Both the position numbers and the translations under genes were made by a program. From contig JAGQLS010000009.1 of the NCBI GenBank assembly GCA_020429045.1, forward strand, positions 1 through 53,207: DNA of 53,207 bases, in the 5' to 3' direction. The first letter of the stretch is position 1. Every line of letters starts with the position of its first letter. A model generated the notes under the pieces. It was not told the DNA's origin. It did not search any database and was given only the letters and a program-made list of their open reading frames with translations. The DNA is from Candidatus Woesebacteria bacterium. GTDB lineage: Bacteria; Patescibacteriota; Microgenomatia; UBA1406; GWC2-37-13. This document shows, piece after piece, positions 13,186-34,821 of this stretch.

Positions 13186-13809
13186 TTATTCTCTTACAAA
13201 TTCTTTATTAATAATTGTTTCCCGACCATTGGCTCCAACTACTTTGATGTCAACGGGATTTTTTCCTTTTTCAAGCGGGATATCAAAAGTAAATTGTCCT
13301 TCTTCGTCGACGTAGACTTCGTTACCAAAAATGGTAACTATTGCCTCAGGCTCGGTTTTTCCAACAAGCGTAATGCGTTCAACGTTTAAAAAATGATCTT
13401 TTGTCGGACTCACGAGTGCAACATCGGGCGGAGAAAGGTATCGTTTGATTTGATATCCAAAGTAGACAGCAAAAAACAACGCGACAACAACACTTATGCC
13501 GATGAGAATTTTTTTAGTTTCAGGAAGCAAATTGAGCGAAGGTACACGCTTTTTAAAATCAATGTGCTTTTCGTTTTTGTCGTATTCGCGGCGAAAGTAA
13601 GCAAGTGCCTTCATGGGGTCAACGTCAAGGTACTGCGCATAGGTTCGAAGTATGCCGGCGATGTAGACGCGGGAAGAAAACAAAGACCAATTATTTTCCT
13701 CTGCGGCTTTGAGATATTTTGTCTGGATACGGGTATCTTCTGAAGCCTGTTTGAGGGTGAGGTTTTTTTTCTCTCGGGCTGTGTGTAGAATTTCTCCAAC
13801 GGTAAGCAT
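13186..13809 (-). CDS. RodZ-like membrane protein with N-terminal HTH
   Basis: 207 residues. Residues 1-75 are a Cro/C1-type helix-turn-helix of the HTH_25 kind (GEILHTAREKKNLTLKQAS). A basic linker and one membrane helix (about 107-125) follow, then an extracellular Ig/glucodextranase-type beta domain (about 132-207). This is the RodZ layout; RodZ links MreB to the cell-wall elongation machinery. No MreB gene is in the window, so the cell-shape role is inferred from architecture. It follows efp by 66 bp on the same strand. Confidence 0.85.
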   Translation of the reverse strand: MLTVGEILHTAREKKNLTLKQASEDTRIQTKYLKAAEENNWSLFSSRVYIAGILRTYAQYLDVDPMKALAYFRREYDKNEKHIDFKKRVPSLNLLPETKKILIGISVVVALFFAVYFGYQIKRYLSPPDVALVSPTKDHFLNVERITLVGKTEPEAIVTIFGNEVYVDEEGQFTFDIPLEKGKNPVDIKVVGANGRETIINKEFVRE

Positions 13810-13875
13810 AACTCTTAAAACGTGTCGCTTATAGCTTATAACTTGTAACGTTAAACTCGATGCTTGTAGCTTGCT

Positions 13876-23935: not shown

Positions 23936-24135
23936 TTTAAGTGTGAGCGAAGATATCTATTTTCGAGCTAGACCGGTCCCTCGAAGAGGGAGAAAGGCGG
24001 CGAGGAAATATGGTATCGAGCGAGCAGGAGAACTTAGAACGTAAAAAGCTTAAGAATACGTGATTCCCCCCCGCCGAATCGGCGGGCGAATCGGAGGGGA
24101 ATGAAAGTGTTCTATTGCTTTAATGTTTTCATGAT
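23936..24135. repeat. Diverged copy of the intergenic repeat family
   Basis: It starts with GTGTGAGCGAAGATAT and a conserved hairpin (CGAAGAT / ATTTTCG), has a different GC-rich middle (CCCTCgaaGAGGG and a REP-like palindrome), and ends with TTGCTTTAATGTTTTCATGA. The order of parts matches the copies at 29775 and 33171. Confidence 0.6.
24066..24104. repeat. REP-like palindrome
   Basis: CCCGCCGA, A, TCGGCGGG forms an 8-bp stem (24070-24086). It is followed by the 16-mer AATCGGAGGGGAATGA (24089-24104) shared exactly with 15577-15592. It lies about 50 bp beyond the secF stop, but without a U-tract. Confidence 0.55.
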
Positions 24136-25020
24136 TTAATGATCTATTGACTTTCGACTTTTTAATTTTTCAAACCACACTGCAAGAGGCGTTGCCACAA
24201 ACGGTGAAGAATACGTACCCGTAATTGTACCGATAAGAAGCGCAACCGCGAAAAAACGAATCGTTGAACCACCAAGAAGTGTAAGCGCAAGTAGCATAAA
24301 AATAATTGTGAAGGAATTGTTTAGCGACCGCACCATCGTGTTGGTCAGTGCCGTGTTGGCATAGGTTGCCATATCATTATGAATCCCCCGCTTCTGGTAA
24401 GCGCGAATCTCGTCAAACACTACAATCGTATCGTGCACCGAAAATGACATCGTGGTAAGGAGCGCTGTAACAAAAAGCGTATCAAGTTCGGCACCAAAGA
24501 AGTGAGAAATAAGAGAATACATGCCGATCACGACGATCGTATCGTGCAAAAGGGCAGAAATTGCTGCAACCGCGAATGTGAATTTTTTAAACGAATAAGC
24601 GATGTAGAGCAAGATGCCGACAATCGCGATGCCCGATGCTATCGCTGTCTTCTCGAGTGTTTCGGCACCGATGACCGGACCTACGGTTTCGGCATTGATC
24701 ACGGTTATTTCTCCAACCTTATCTTGCAATCCGGAAAGGAATGTTTGCTCTTCCTCTGTGCTGAGCGCCCGAGTTTTGATGAGTAGTCCGCTATTTTTTT
24801 CAAGCGCATTCACTGACGAAAGTTCGATGTTTTGTGCTTTTGCAACAGCGACAACAGTTTCGTGAGATAAGAGTTTTTCAGATTGTACGCTCAGTTCGGT
24901 TCCGCCGGTGAAGTCTATGGAGATAGTAAACCCCCAGACCATGATGGAAATAAGACCCACGGCAATAACAATAGAGGATATCGCAACATACCACTTCTGA
25001 TATTTCAAAAAGTCAATCAT
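24136..25020 (-). CDS. secF: Protein translocase subunit SecF
   Basis: 294 residues with the six-helix SecF topology: first helix about 11-33, a periplasmic-type domain beginning FTGGTELSVQ, then five helices. Family motifs include SFSVHDTIVVFDEIR and the TSPFVATPLA-like end. With SecD it uses the ion gradient to help late stages of protein export. It starts 6 nt after the secD stop. The many secreted proteins in the window are clients. Confidence 0.95.
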   Translation of the reverse strand: MIDFLKYQKWYVAISSIVIAVGLISIMVWGFTISIDFTGGTELSVQSEKLLSHETVVAVAKAQNIELSSVNALEKNSGLLIKTRALSTEEEQTFLSGLQDKVGEITVINAETVGPVIGAETLEKTAIASGIAIVGILLYIAYSFKKFTFAVAAISALLHDTIVVIGMYSLISHFFGAELDTLFVTALLTTMSFSVHDTIVVFDEIRAYQKRGIHNDMATYANTALTNTMVRSLNNSFTIIFMLLALTLLGGSTIRFFAVALLIGTITGTYSSPFVATPLAVWFEKLKSRKSIDH

Positions 25021-28303: not shown

Positions 28304-28404
28304 CATGATTACGAAACGTGTAGCTTTAAACTTGTCTCTTGTAACTTTTCCCTAACATCTAATATCTAACTTGTGACTTTTCGACTTTATACTATACTAT
28401 CTTC

Positions 28405-29696: not shown

Positions 29697-29774
29697 ACTA
29701 CAATTATATATAACAAATGAAAAACAGAGAACAGAAAACGTGTAGCTTGTAGCTTGAAACATGTAACTTAAAAC

Positions 29775-29971
29775 GTGAGCGAAGATACCGTATTTTCGAA
29801 GACCTGCCCTTTGATTTTGCTTAAGGAACGATCCTAGAATTTGTTTCAGGGAGCGAAAAGGAACAGTATTGTTCATTGTTTTATTGACATATTGTTTTAA
29901 TGTTTTATTGATTTAATGATTTCTTGACTTTTCCCTAACATCTAATATCTAACAACTCATTATCTAGCCTT
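29775..29971. repeat. Intergenic repeat, copy A (upstream of the DUF4012 gene)
   Basis: About 155 bp from GTGAGCGAAGATACCG onward match 33171-33325 with roughly four substitutions. Beyond an indel-rich AT tract both copies share CTCATTATCTAGCCTTATG, which here ends in the DUF4012 start codon. Inside is a predicted RNA hairpin, CGAAGATA / TATTTTCG with a CCG loop. Confidence 0.9.
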
Positions 29972-32254
29972 ATGAAACTCACCATCGAATACGTCGAAGA
30001 ACAATCCGTCATCGCAATCATCGCCAAACAGTATTCCTCCTTTGCCCAACGCATAAAAGAGCAACTCAAAGATTACAATGTAGAACTTTTCCAAGACGAA
30101 ACCCCCGAGTCAATCGATGAATTCGACGTCCTCTTCTTAATTAACCGCGACGACATAGACATCGCCGAACTCATCAGTCAAAAAAATAAAAAAACCACGA
30201 TCGTATTATTTCGTCAAGGCGATTATGCACAATACCTCTGCAACGAAATTTACAAGAAAAAGGCAAAACATATTAAAGTTATAAATCTACAAACCCAAAA
30301 ACAGTACTACAAAAAAGATGTTGATACCATTTTATGGTTTTCTTTTTCTCAAACGCCCGATGCGTTTCTTTACATTTATAATCCGCCAATTGCGCCAAAG
30401 AAAAAAATTCGGAGAAAGCTACCGCTTGGTACCCGTTTGAAAAAAACGCTGTTGAAACCCAGAACGCTTATCTTGACTGGGTTGTGGCTTTTTATCATGA
30501 GTCAGGTACTATTTCTCTTCCCGCTTGGCGTGGCAACTTACCATAACTACCAACTTGCTCGCACGCTTGTGGCCGGCGATATCCAGACTGCGAAGAAGCA
30601 CGTATCGCAAGCGCGCGCCAATCTGACAACAAGTAGAAAATTCTATACAGCTTCCCAACCGCTGTTTCGATTCATAAACATTGGGCTTGCAATCGACAAT
30701 ATGTTTCAGCTGAATGAATCGGCTATCGTTTTAGGAGATGCGGCGATACAGGTGAAACATAATACTACAGATATACTCGAACACATACAACAATCAAATA
30801 AGTCTACAGAAGAACTTGCAACGCTCAATAAAGAATATGATGAAACGTTTTCGCTTCTTGAAACGATCAAAGCGCAAGCAGATATCGTCACGACCAAGAT
30901 ACCCGAAATTCATCCATCGCTTGTTGCAGCAAAAGAGCGCATTGCTCACCTTTCCGAGACGCTTGCCGCTGTTGACACAGTTGAACCGATTATGTCTTCG
31001 TTCATAAAATCCGATGGAGAAAAAACATATCTTGTCTTGTTTGCCAATAATATGGAGCTGAGACCCGGAGGAGGTTTCATCGGGTCCTTTGCTATCGTCC
31101 ACACCAAACCATTCACGCTTGATGATATCCATGTGTACGATGTGTACGACGCCGATGGTCAACTCACCGAACGCATTGAACCCCCAAAACCGATCTCTGA
31201 ATATTTGCATCAGCCTTTTTGGTTTTTGCGTGATTCTGCCTTTTCCCCAGATTTTCCCACGAATGCACAACAAGCGCACATATTCACCTCGCTTGAGCTG
31301 CCGAAAGAACAATTTGACGGCACGATCCTCATAACTACATCGGCAGTGCAAAATCTCCTTGCCTCGATGGGCGACGTGTACATCCCCGACTACAAAGAAA
31401 ACATAAATAAAGATAATTTTTATATCAAAACCCAGTTGTATGCTGAAGACGATTTCTTCCCGGGTTCGCAGTCAAAAAAACGTTTCCTGACTAGCGTGAT
31501 GAACCAGATCCTCCTTGCCATACCTCAAGCTTCCGGGCCTGAGCTTGTGCAGGCAATACAAACGTCACTTGATGAGAAACAAATGGTGATCGCAGTTGAC
31601 GACAAGGACATACAAGCGCGTATTGATAAAAAATACTGGGCTGGTCGCATGCTCACTCCCCAGTGTTCCCTTCCTGATGCGGTAAATTGTGTCTTAGATT
31701 ACGTGTTTTTGGTTGACGCCAATCTCGGGGTGAATAAAGCAAATTATTTTATTCAGCGCCCAACAAAAATGAATATCACAATAAGTGAAGAAGGCAATAT
31801 AACAAACACGGTCTCGTTCACCTACGCCAACACTTCCTATGATGACGTATTTCCCGGGGGAACATATAAAAATTATTTACAAATGTTCCTGCCACCCAAC
31901 GCGCAAATCGATAATGTACTCATGGATGGCAAACCCGTGCAAAACACGGAAGAAACGAATATTGATTACCGAACAATCGGATTTTTCTTGACCGTCAACC
32001 CGCAATCGGTCAAAACGATAGAAATAACGTATACGCTGCCAACGACTATAGTGAAAGGCAAGGGAGTCTACCAGCTCATTTTCCAAAAACAAATCGGCTA
32101 CCCAAATGAAGAGCTGCACATGCGTGTTTCACTCCCGAGTAATGTAACTGTGGAGAGAAATAACTTTACTCCCCTTGCCAATAGTCGAAATATTGACTAT
32201 AATACCACCATTTCTTCGGACAAAATTTTTGTCCTGGAATTTAATAAACAGTAA
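29972..32254 (+). CDS. DUF4012 membrane-anchored protein
   Basis: 760 residues. The N-terminal 150 residues form a Rossmann-like, response-regulator-sized cytoplasmic domain with no clear catalytic motif. A basic patch and one membrane helix follow (about 165-188, LILTGLWLFIMSQVLFLFPLGV), then a helical linker (190-330) and the DUF4012 domain with its hallmark YLVLFANNMELRPGGGFIGSFA, ending in beta-rich repeats (about 580-760). DUF4012 proteins are common in CPR and Gram-positive bacteria; function unknown, presumably cell-surface assembly. bL25 starts 4 nt after its stop. The upstream repeat reaches its start codon. Confidence 0.9.
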   Translation: MKLTIEYVEEQSVIAIIAKQYSSFAQRIKEQLKDYNVELFQDETPESIDEFDVLFLINRDDIDIAELISQKNKKTTIVLFRQGDYAQYLCNEIYKKKAKHIKVINLQTQKQYYKKDVDTILWFSFSQTPDAFLYIYNPPIAPKKKIRRKLPLGTRLKKTLLKPRTLILTGLWLFIMSQVLFLFPLGVATYHNYQLARTLVAGDIQTAKKHVSQARANLTTSRKFYTASQPLFRFINIGLAIDNMFQLNESAIVLGDAAIQVKHNTTDILEHIQQSNKSTEELATLNKEYDETFSLLETIKAQADIVTTKIPEIHPSLVAAKERIAHLSETLAAVDTVEPIMSSFIKSDGEKTYLVLFANNMELRPGGGFIGSFAIVHTKPFTLDDIHVYDVYDADGQLTERIEPPKPISEYLHQPFWFLRDSAFSPDFPTNAQQAHIFTSLELPKEQFDGTILITTSAVQNLLASMGDVYIPDYKENINKDNFYIKTQLYAEDDFFPGSQSKKRFLTSVMNQILLAIPQASGPELVQAIQTSLDEKQMVIAVDDKDIQARIDKKYWAGRMLTPQCSLPDAVNCVLDYVFLVDANLGVNKANYFIQRPTKMNITISEEGNITNTVSFTYANTSYDDVFPGGTYKNYLQMFLPPNAQIDNVLMDGKPVQNTEETNIDYRTIGFFLTVNPQSVKTIEITYTLPTTIVKGKGVYQLIFQKQIGYPNEELHMRVSLPSNVTVERNNFTPLANSRNIDYNTTISSDKIFVLEFNKQ

Positions 32255-32258
32255 AAGT

Positions 32259-32984
32259 ATGACAACAAATCAAAAGGAAAAAATTATTCTTGCCGTCCAA
32301 AAACGCAATGTCGTAGGAAAGGCAAACCGCATGCTGCGCAAACAGGGAATGATTCCGGCTGTTGTATATGGTCAAGGTACAGAACCTCTTTCCATCAGCA
32401 TCGGTATGAAAGATTTCATTTCTACCTATAAAAAAGCCGGAGAAACATCGGTTATTTATATCTCAATTGAAAAACAAGAAATTCCCACGCTTATTACTGA
32501 TTATCAAATCGATCCGATACGCAACTCCATTTTGCACGTCGATTTCATAAAAGTAAACTTGCACAAGAAGATAGAAGCTTCTGTGCCTGTTGAATTTGTC
32601 GGCGAATCTGAGGCAGTCAAAACCTTAAATGGCGTACTACTTACACAGACCGACGAGATAACGGTGGAAGCATTACCAACCGACATCCCTCATGCATTTA
32701 CCATTGATCTTTCGAAACTGACTCAAATTGGTGATATCGTGACCGTCGCTGATCTACCAAAATCCTCTTCATATACCATCCAGGATGAAGAAGACAAAAT
32801 CATCGTTTCTGTTGTCGAACACAAAGAAGAAGAGCTTGAGCCAGATACCACCTCCGAAACACCCGAGGTCACTGCCGAAGGCCAAGAGGGCGAAGAAGCC
32901 CAAGAAGGCGCCGAAGGCGAAACTCCACAAGCAGCTGAACAGCCAAGTGACGAGGGGAAGGACAATAATAAGAAAAAAGAGTAA
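32259..32984 (+). CDS. rplY: Ribosomal protein bL25 (CTC form)
   Basis: 241 residues from the ATG at 32259, 4 nt after the DUF4012 stop; the longer frame from 32175 overlaps that gene and is rejected. The L25 domain (about 5-95: NVVGKANRMLRKQGMIPAVVYG) binds 5S rRNA, followed by the CTC beta domain (100-185) and a 55-residue Glu-rich acidic tail (EEAQEGAEGE). It belongs to the 50S subunit. The acidic tail resembles that of NusA in this window. Confidence 0.94.
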   Translation: MTTNQKEKIILAVQKRNVVGKANRMLRKQGMIPAVVYGQGTEPLSISIGMKDFISTYKKAGETSVIYISIEKQEIPTLITDYQIDPIRNSILHVDFIKVNLHKKIEASVPVEFVGESEAVKTLNGVLLTQTDEITVEALPTDIPHAFTIDLSKLTQIGDIVTVADLPKSSSYTIQDEEDKIIVSVVEHKEEELEPDTTSETPEVTAEGQEGEEAQEGAEGETPQAAEQPSDEGKDNNKKKE

Positions 32985-33429
32985 ATTACTCCCCTTGCCA
33001 CTACCGGCTCTACGCAAGACGTGTAGCTCAAAACATATAACCTGAAGCGTGTAACTTAAAGCTTGTATCTTATAATTTGAAGGCGTGTGGCGTAGGGATA
33101 AGTCGCCTGACTGCCGCAGGCAAGCGAATTGTCCGTACACGAATTATCTTTATTTACATTTACTTGAAGTGTGAGCGAAGATACCGTATTTTCGAAGACC
33201 TGCCCTTTGATTTTGCTTAAGGAACGATCCTAGACTTTGTTTCAGGGAGTGAAAAGGAAAAGTATTGTTCATTGTTTTATTGACATATTGTTTTAATGTT
33301 TTATTGCTTTAATGATTTCTTGATTTCTTGATATATTGTTTTCATGATTTAATGATTTTATGATTTTTCCCTAACAACTCATTATCTAGCCTTATGACTT
33401 TTTCACTTATTATTTAGTATAGTAAACAT
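32985..33429. other. Long noncoding gap between rplY and aspS
   Basis: No gene is seen. It begins with short degenerate words (GTGTAGCTC, GTAACTTAAA, GCTTGTATCTT) that recur in other gaps (13815, 28313, 29737). It then holds repeat copy B (33171-33396), including a 7-codon mini-ORF at 33394, and the aspS promoter TATAGT (33418-33423). Confidence 0.7.
33171..33396. repeat. Intergenic repeat, copy B (upstream of aspS)
   Basis: Near-identical to 29775-29971 over the first 155 bp. It carries an extra run of TTGATATATTGTTTTCATGATTT-like units before the shared TTTTTCCCTAACAACTCATT and CTAGCCTTATG end. The final ATG opens only a 7-codon frame (MTFSLII), unlike copy A. Confidence 0.9.
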
Positions 33430-34821
33430 ATGAAAAATCTTTTCATCTCAGAAACACCAAGCAAAATCGGCAAAACCGTTGAGCTATACGGATGGATCGA
33501 CACCGTTCGCAACCACAAAAAAATCATATTTATCGACCTGCGCGATCGAAGCGGCATCGTCCAGGTTGTTGGTGATGAATCATATGCTGCCCTTTCCCCC
33601 GAAGATGTGGTAAAAATTACTGGAACCGTCAAAAAACGACCAGAAAAACTGGTAAACAAACAACTACCAACCGGCGAAATAGAAATCGAAGCAGCGTCAT
33701 TTGAAATATTATCCCATGCAAAAACACTTCCGTTGCCAATCGACACCGATGGACACGAAATCGACGAAGAAGTACGGCTCAAATATCGTTACCTTGACTT
33801 GCGCCGACCACGCATGAAGCAAAATCTCATCATGAGGTCAAAAATAACCACATACATTCGCAATTTTCTCACCCAGCGTGAGTTTATAGAAGTCGAAACT
33901 CCTATTTTGACCAAAACCACACCCGAAGGTGCACGCGATTTTCTCGTACCTTCTCGTTTGCAGCAGGGGAAATTTTATGCACTCCCCCAGTCGCCACAAC
34001 AGTACAAACAACTCCTTATGGTCGCCGGCGTAGAGCGCTATTTTCAGATCGCTCGTTGTTTCCGCGACGAAGACCCTAGAGCGGATCGTGCCTATGGCGA
34101 GTTTACGCAACTTGACCTTGAGATGTCGTTTGTAACGCGCGATGACATCATGCAGCTTACCGAAGCACTCTTCACCACGATGGTTGAAGAGCTTTTTCCT
34201 GAGAAACACATCATGCAAAAACCATGGCCACGCCTCACTCACAAGCAAGTCATGGAAAAATACGACACTGACAAACCCGACTTGAGGAAAAATAAAGATG
34301 ATAAAGATGAACTCGCGTTCTCGTGGACCATAGACTTTCCCCTTTTCACCAAACAGACATCAGAAGATTATTACCACGGTTCTGGGAGCGCTACATTTGC
34401 GCCTTCTCATCATATGTTTACCGCGCCCCACCCCGATGATGTAGAAATGCTTGATTCCGATCCACTCAAAGTACGCGGACAACAATACGACCTCGTGCTC
34501 AATGGCTACGAGGTGGGCGGCGGAAGCATCAGAATTCATGACGGGGCGATTCAACAGAAAATTTTTGATCTTATTGGATTTTCTGAAGAACAAAAACATC
34601 AATTTGATCATATGCTGACTGCGTTCACCTATGGCGTACCACCACACGGAGGTATCGCGCCTGGCATCGACCGGCTCTTGTTTGCCATTCTTGGCGAACC
34701 GTCGCTTCGAGAAGTGGTCGCCTTTCCGGCAACATCGGGCGGCAAAATCGCCGTCATGGATGCGCCATCTGAAGCAACCAAAGAACAACTCGACGAGCTC
34801 GGCATCAAAACATTGACATGA
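33430..34821 (+). CDS. aspS: Aspartyl-tRNA synthetase lacking the GAD insertion
   Basis: 463 residues against about 590 for typical bacterial AspRS. The anticodon-binding OB domain (1-105), motif 1, motif 2 (FQIARCFRDEDPRADR) and motif 3 (GGIAPGIDRLLFAI) are present and bacterial in style (LKYRYLDLRRP). The roughly 120-residue GAD domain between motifs 2 and 3 is reduced to a short Lys/Asp-rich segment (PDLRKNKDDKDE). It charges tRNA-Asp, possibly also tRNA-Asn if asnS is absent. TATAGT ends exactly 6 nt before the ATG. The stop overlaps the next start (ATGA). Confidence 0.95.
   Translation: MKNLFISETPSKIGKTVELYGWIDTVRNHKKIIFIDLRDRSGIVQVVGDESYAALSPEDVVKITGTVKKRPEKLVNKQLPTGEIEIEAASFEILSHAKTLPLPIDTDGHEIDEEVRLKYRYLDLRRPRMKQNLIMRSKITTYIRNFLTQREFIEVETPILTKTTPEGARDFLVPSRLQQGKFYALPQSPQQYKQLLMVAGVERYFQIARCFRDEDPRADRAYGEFTQLDLEMSFVTRDDIMQLTEALFTTMVEELFPEKHIMQKPWPRLTHKQVMEKYDTDKPDLRKNKDDKDELAFSWTIDFPLFTKQTSEDYYHGSGSATFAPSHHMFTAPHPDDVEMLDSDPLKVRGQQYDLVLNGYEVGGGSIRIHDGAIQQKIFDLIGFSEEQKHQFDHMLTAFTYGVPPHGGIAPGIDRLLFAILGEPSLREVVAFPATSGGKIAVMDAPSEATKEQLDELGIKTLT

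Follow-up and report, generated by a model that had tools for sequence, protein, structure and literature searches.

A dispersed mosaic repeat resembling REPINs and MITEs between the genes of a Candidatus Woesebacteria bacterium

Two nearly identical intergenic blocks stand upstream of a DUF4012 gene (copy A) and of aspS (copy B) in a 53,207-nt stretch of DNA from a Candidatus Woesebacteria bacterium, raising the question of what such blocks are and how they came to lie between genes. This stretch, the window, comprises bases 1-53207 of contig C58 in a genome of 58 contigs and 1.19 Mb (G000). An initial annotation had added a third copy near secF (copy C) and had proposed either a mobile promoter/RNA element or a structured regulatory RNA. 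Our analyses suggest, with a probability of about 0.68, that these blocks are members of a non-coding, lineage-specific family of dispersed mosaic repeats resembling REPINs, i.e. doublets of repetitive extragenic palindromes (REPs) forming hairpins, and miniature inverted-repeat transposable elements (MITEs), combined with tandem arrays of short words. About 27 copies lie dispersed in the genome, nearly always exactly between genes, their arms are paired and change together, alternative inserts occur at a fixed GAGCGAA joint and the orthologous spacers of relatives are nearly empty; the mobile character suggested at the outset is supported by these features.

Copy number, position and modular order

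Further copies, the absence of which was to count against the initial proposal, are clearly present. The arm query GAGCGAAGATANNNTATTTTCG matches at 14 places in the genome with up to three mismatches compared to one in the reversed sequence, some of the three-mismatch matches looking like chance, and blastn with copy A yields 51 partial matches. A hidden Markov model (HMM) of the tail, run over ~0.7 Mb of genome sequence with a cut-off of E below about 1e-3, gives 30 matches at 27 distinct places and none in the same sequence reversed. As the reversed-sequence controls return 0-1 matches overall, the repeat copies are not explained by chance. Beyond copies A, B and C and a fourth copy in the window, about 25 more are found elsewhere in the genome, and A, B and a copy on contig C12, which are 95-97% identical over 117-165 bp, would have arisen recently by duplication of a single mosaic version.

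The family appears to be confined to a narrow host range. Across 143 related genomes the arm is absent except for one match with two mismatches, the exact 23-mer of the arm has no match in GTDB r220 contigs or viral contigs, and copy A has none in phage and plasmid records; an origin from phages, plasmids or viruses was dropped on these grounds. The middle module TTTCGACTCCGCTTAAGGGACCGG, considered as a pan-bacterial repeat, has 0 exact matches in GTDB contigs and is unsupported in that exact form. Elsewhere in the family, a few genera have tail-like 7-mers (CTAACATCTAATATC) at weak E-values.

Within the genome, contigs C22, C33 and C44 (384 kb, ~1/3 of the genome) are virtually devoid of the ~30 blocks, which reflects either regional clustering or contigs of a second organism. 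Most sampled stretches of these contigs are similar in tetranucleotide composition; deviating profiles are seen in C22:1-20000 (r 0.39), which holds a partial Y1 transposase gene, and C33:80001-100000 (r 0.31).

Every tail examined abuts a coding boundary: 23 of the 27 end no more than about 50 nt from a start codon on the same strand, mostly within 20, and the remaining four where a gene on the opposite strand has its stop codon. The rplF-rplR spacer measures 150 bp here compared to -11 to 17 bp in relatives with a readable locus, the rplY-aspS spacer 445 bp compared to about 20 bp in the relative G012, and at C1:23964 a gene end continues in frame into the joint module. Taken together, the tails at coding boundaries, the near-empty spacers of relatives and this in-frame run show that the blocks are additions to the gaps between genes in this lineage.

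The blocks follow the order of a GTAACTT-type 7-mer array, an optional arm (GAGCGAA followed by GATACCRTATTTTC; present in 10 of the 27 tail copies), one of two middles, a TTTAATGA-type 8-mer array and a CTAACAT-type 7-mer tail with the terminus CTAGCCTTATG. The first middle is a run closing with GAGCGAA and the joint module AAGGAAAAGTATTGTTCATTG, the second a GC-rich hairpin, CGCCGAATCGGCGGG..GGGGAATGACA; both never occur together in the 27 tail copies. Immediately 5' of AAGGAAAAGTATTGTTCATTG, arm-derived inserts are present in A, B and the copies on C12, C2, C6 and C11, and a different 165-bp inverted-repeat element is found in C56 (31172-31356), GAGCGAA-like heptamers flanking the inserts on both sides. 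Such differing inserts before one module would look like the pattern expected of alternative insertions at one site.

Two further element types share some of these building blocks. The inverted-repeat element of about 165 bp, AGCGAAATAACC...GGTTATGAGCGAA, constitutes a second family with the same GAGCGAA outer heptamer as the first (C56:31172-31356 and C2:5357-5526). A third type, at C11:79581 and C11:143902, has a first-family arm at one end, the differing end AACGAAATGTAAAAGAATAAATATATACGAAGAG at the opposite one and, internally, an inverted AATTTT..ATCTCC stem.

The copies of the window and their paired arms

The reported duplication is confirmed, copies A and B having 95% identity over 165 nt (29766-29930 / 33162-33326). 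They diverge in an AT-rich array and rejoin in 27 identical nt, CTAACAACTCATTATCTAGCCTTATGA (29949-29975 / 33371-33397), a block closing with CTAGCCTTATGA; their shared terminus is CTAACAACTCATTATCTAGCCTTATG. The roles assigned to the terminal ATG hold as well, with that of A (29972) being the start of the DUF4012 protein (PF13196, E 1.4e-21) and that of B, which sits between rplY (L25/TL5) and aspS, opening only seven codons (ATG ACT TTT TCA CTT ATT ATT TAG). Copy C, located between a metallo-beta-lactamase-fold gene and secF, matches its description as a third copy in part: it retains the left arm (77-81% over 26 nt) together with a portion of the 8-mer tail (60%), the middle is unrelated to A and B and contains a right arm and a GC-rich hairpin, and the CTAACAT...CTAGCC end is missing. 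The fourth copy is arm-less (28314-28370) and shares 27 identical nt with A; further 7-mer arrays of the window lie at 13804-13872 and 33017-33078. The features of the four copies are as follows.

29736..29769, plus strand: copy A, degenerate 7-mer array (GTAACTT/GTAGCTT), left side
29777..29783, plus strand: copy A, left GAGCGAA heptamer, direct repeat with 29851-29857 (joint analysis)
29780..29798, plus strand: copy A, left arm of the inverted repeat, CGAAGATACCGTATTTTCG, the hairpin of the initial annotation; core GATACCGTATTTTC at 29784-29797
29799..29850, plus strand: copy A, variable middle of type CTGCCCTTTGATTTTGCTTAAGG...
29851..29878, plus strand: copy A, right GAGCGAA heptamer and joint module AAGGAACAGTATTGTTCATTG, common to seven other copies
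29875..29926, plus strand: copy A, degenerate 8-mer (TTTAATGA) array (tail HMM)
29927..29974, plus strand: copy A, 7-mer (CTAACAT/CTAATAT) tail closing with the ATG of the DUF4012 gene (tail HMM)
33017..33078, plus strand: copy B, spacer 7-mer array 3' of the rplY stop codon
33145..33161, plus strand: copy B, inverted, transition-diverged arm copy just upstream (TATCTTTATTTACATTT), pairing with 33167-33183 (fold)
33173..33194, plus strand: copy B, GAGCGAA heptamer and left arm
33195..33274, plus strand: copy B, middle and joint module (GAGTGAA at 33247-33253, AAGGAAAAGTATTGTTCATTG at 33254-33274)
33271..33366, plus strand: copy B, expanded 8-mer (TTTAATGA) array
33367..33396, plus strand: copy B, shortened 7-mer tail with the ATG of seven codons; aspS starts at 33430
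23945..23965, plus strand: copy C, heptamer and left arm
24004..24024, plus strand: copy C, right arm GGAAATATGGTATC and GAGCGAG, pairing with the left arm; arm-core match on the minus strand
24063..24102, plus strand: copy C, GC-rich hairpin module ATTCCCC...CGCCGAATCGGCGGG...GGGGAAT
24107..24154, plus strand: copy C, 8-mer tail reaching the stop-codon end of secF
28314..28370, plus strand: fourth, arm-less copy, 7-mer array fused straight to the CTAACATCTAATATCTAAC tail

Both A and B contain the 8-bp stem with a CCG loop noted initially (CGAAGATA CCG TATTTTCG; 29780-29798 and 33176-33194). A second arm, inverted, follows 40-75 bp downstream in five copies, i.e. C11:92567, C11:142620 (minus strand), C54:68050, C11:77180 and copy C, resulting in two-armed elements of 85-110 bp in which the arms pair over at least 14 bp. 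The true arm pairing is the best of 120 left-right permutations (duplex energy sum -99.5 compared to a mean of -90.8 kcal/mol), the test resting on a small sample of five copies, and compensatory changes are found on both arms, C-G to T-A in C54 and A-T to T-A in C11:77180. The latter copy has lost the local hairpin (-0.2 kcal/mol) and kept the arm-to-arm stem (-19.1 kcal/mol); the local hairpin is otherwise almost invariant, leaving little scope for covariation. Since the arms pair and change together, and since C11:77180 keeps only the arm-to-arm stem, the hairpin is mainly the quasi-palindromic left arm of a two-armed element. In A and B the matching right arm is lost or was never present; the inverted arm immediately upstream of copy B pairs over about 16 bp.

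Mechanism, known systems and competing explanations

The mechanism best supported by these observations is that of non-autonomous mobile DNA, in which an enzyme acting in trans on paired arms would copy blocks into the few-base gaps between genes, with the arrays then growing, shrinking and drifting through replication slippage. The surviving insertions would be those sparing both neighbouring genes, so that block ends would come to lie at start or stop codons. Effects on neighbouring genes would be by-products, and a tail pointing into a gene may have a selected role.

The element shares with REPINs (PMC3116915) two short inverted arms enclosing a variable middle and forming a long stem, the extragenic location, the occurrence of single arms as well as doublets and the multiple copies within one genome. 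It differs in the lower copy number (about 14 arms), in having no dedicated Y1 transposase (REP-associated tyrosine transposase, RAYT) found beside the copies, in only the left arm being a good local palindrome and in being embedded in 7-/8-mer arrays. Two inverted arms forming one hairpin are found in five copies, most arm copies including A and B being single-armed, and neither a GTAG nor a CGTC tag is present, the foot of the arm being GAGCGAA in nearly all copies. The GTAG/CGTC-tagged REPs are likewise short, mostly intergenic palindromes often arranged as inverted pairs, some families having no known transposase; they are stated to lie predominantly downstream of coding regions, whereas the tails here mostly face start codons (PMC3733652). 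With MITEs the element has in common that it is non-coding, multi-copy and bounded by inverted repeats, the 14-bp inverted core being GATACCRTATTTTC and 85-110 bp being too short for a transposase gene. The BrickBuilt MITE of Porphyromonas gingivalis, present in 19 always intergenic copies in one strain, also combines MITE-like features and a limited host range with an internal tandem repeat and leader and tail subunits; it consists of one 23-nt unit at 49-591 nt from genes, in contrast to three 7-8 nt word arrays here in blocks abutting coding sequences (PMC4596501). Bacterial interspersed mosaic elements (BIMEs), as described in PMC2817692, are similarly composed of short intergenic modules in a preferred order, but their modules, size and host are unrelated, and the words here form tandem 7-8 nt arrays. 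We therefore file the element as one that appears to work like a REPIN/MITE mosaic, a likeness short of proven membership because the defining tags are absent and the transposase partner is unproven.

Several points weigh against a mobile mosaic repeat. No transposase with matching ends was found in the genome stretches read of this incomplete assembly, outside which a partner may lie, and the sole Y1 transposase match, located at the edge of C22 in a compositionally foreign stretch, is to an incomplete gene. Seventeen of the 27 tails have no arm, hence the arm is not the sole spreading part, and either other parts spread too or arms were lost. The GAGCGAA direct repeat, moreover, does not vary between insertions as a target-site duplication of a MITE would, being the same in nearly all copies, so that a part of the element or a fixed target fits better than a random target duplication. 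Finally, all relatives compared (143 genomes, with spacers sampled in G007, G012, G025, G026 and G045) lie outside the genus, hence no true empty site is among them.

The orientation of the tails raises the idea of a portable expression module, in which the 8-mer and CTAACAT array up to ..TTATG acts as a promoter or 5' leader driving or insulating the downstream gene, with its orientation being selected. In co-directional spacers, 17 of 20 copies (one assigned by reading the rplF-rplR locus) point the tail toward the downstream start codon and three the opposite way (two-sided binomial p 0.0026), the gene downstream of A and of four other copies starts at the ATG of the tail itself, and stop codons in the tail are commoner than in first-order Markov sequence. 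However, selection against the other orientation could equally give this bias, one of the three reversed copies lies between rplF and rplR within the ribosomal operon, and another copy is located between convergent genes. In A and B, sites resembling promoters show no clear excess over shuffles, which neither establishes nor excludes the mobile promoter of the initial annotation; promoter and terminator scans as a whole gave the same outcome. We consider such a module unlikely; the 17:3 bias along transcription leaves scope for a leader function.

A broader possibility, to which we likewise assign a low likelihood, is that small-genome bacteria of this family carry genome-specific vocabularies of 6-8 nt words, which a dedicated mechanism would copy into gaps as whole, transcription-oriented spacer blocks. 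In the relative G025, a different genus of the same family, 19 of 44 sampled spacers contain the genome's own dispersed words as imperfect hairpins (GATCTTAGATCTTTGATCTGAGATCTTAG-TTTTTTT-CTAAGATCCAAGACCTAATATCTAAGATC), with long examples of 6-8 nt words at L181:253-499 and L180:13088-13316 (within L180-L184); G007, G026 and G045 have little of such spacer words where sampled. Genome-specific spacer words thus occur in at least two genera and are not universal. The mean fold z of spacers is -2.11 in G025 compared to -0.42 in this genome, ruling out that all spacers here are hairpin-rich like those of G025. If true, such word vocabularies would make up a class of their own among spacer-building elements, separate from REPs and MITEs and having a portable 5' leader function.

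Alternatively, the blocks might have arisen without transposition, as short-word arrays grown locally by replication slippage and quasi-palindrome template switching and homogenised via gene conversion or recombination. The degenerate 7-/8-mer arrays, which differ in length between A and B, the transition-diverged inverted arm adjoining the arm of copy B, and the G025 spacers, which suggest array growth to be a wider habit of the family, fit this explanation. Nevertheless, it leaves the same non-array modules at unlinked loci (arm, GC-rich hairpin, joint module and 165-bp inverted-repeat element) unaccounted for, and the 95-97% identity over 117-165 bp of A, B and the C12 copy requires copying, making purely local growth improbable.

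A structured regulatory RNA, riboswitch- or small RNA-like, in the 5' leaders of DUF4012 and aspS, as put forward in the initial annotation, is largely refuted and very improbable, for despite the stable local hairpin of 8 bp that precedes two genes and the strong fold of copy C (z -5.96), the folds of copies A and B are no stronger than those of shuffled sequence (z 0.38 and -1.33), an Rfam scan of the window returns only three tRNAs at gathering scores and nothing for the element, the downstream genes are functionally unrelated, most tails have no arms and the local hairpin is broken in the two-armed copy C11:77180.

In streamlined bacteria of this kind, genes are usually only a few bases apart, as is seen in the orthologous spacers covered here. 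A repeat filling such gaps from stop to start codon, even in a ribosomal-protein operon, suggests that active small mobile DNA can persist in a reduced genome, and it provides defined loci for asking what moves the blocks and whether the orientation bias reflects a leader function. In the literature searched, with subscription papers outside its coverage, we came across no account of elements of this sort in this bacterial group. Apart from the repeat family, direct repeats of the GGTGTGTTTGTTG type lie on the plus strand of the window at 1453-1980, probably reflecting low-complexity coding sequence on the opposite strand.

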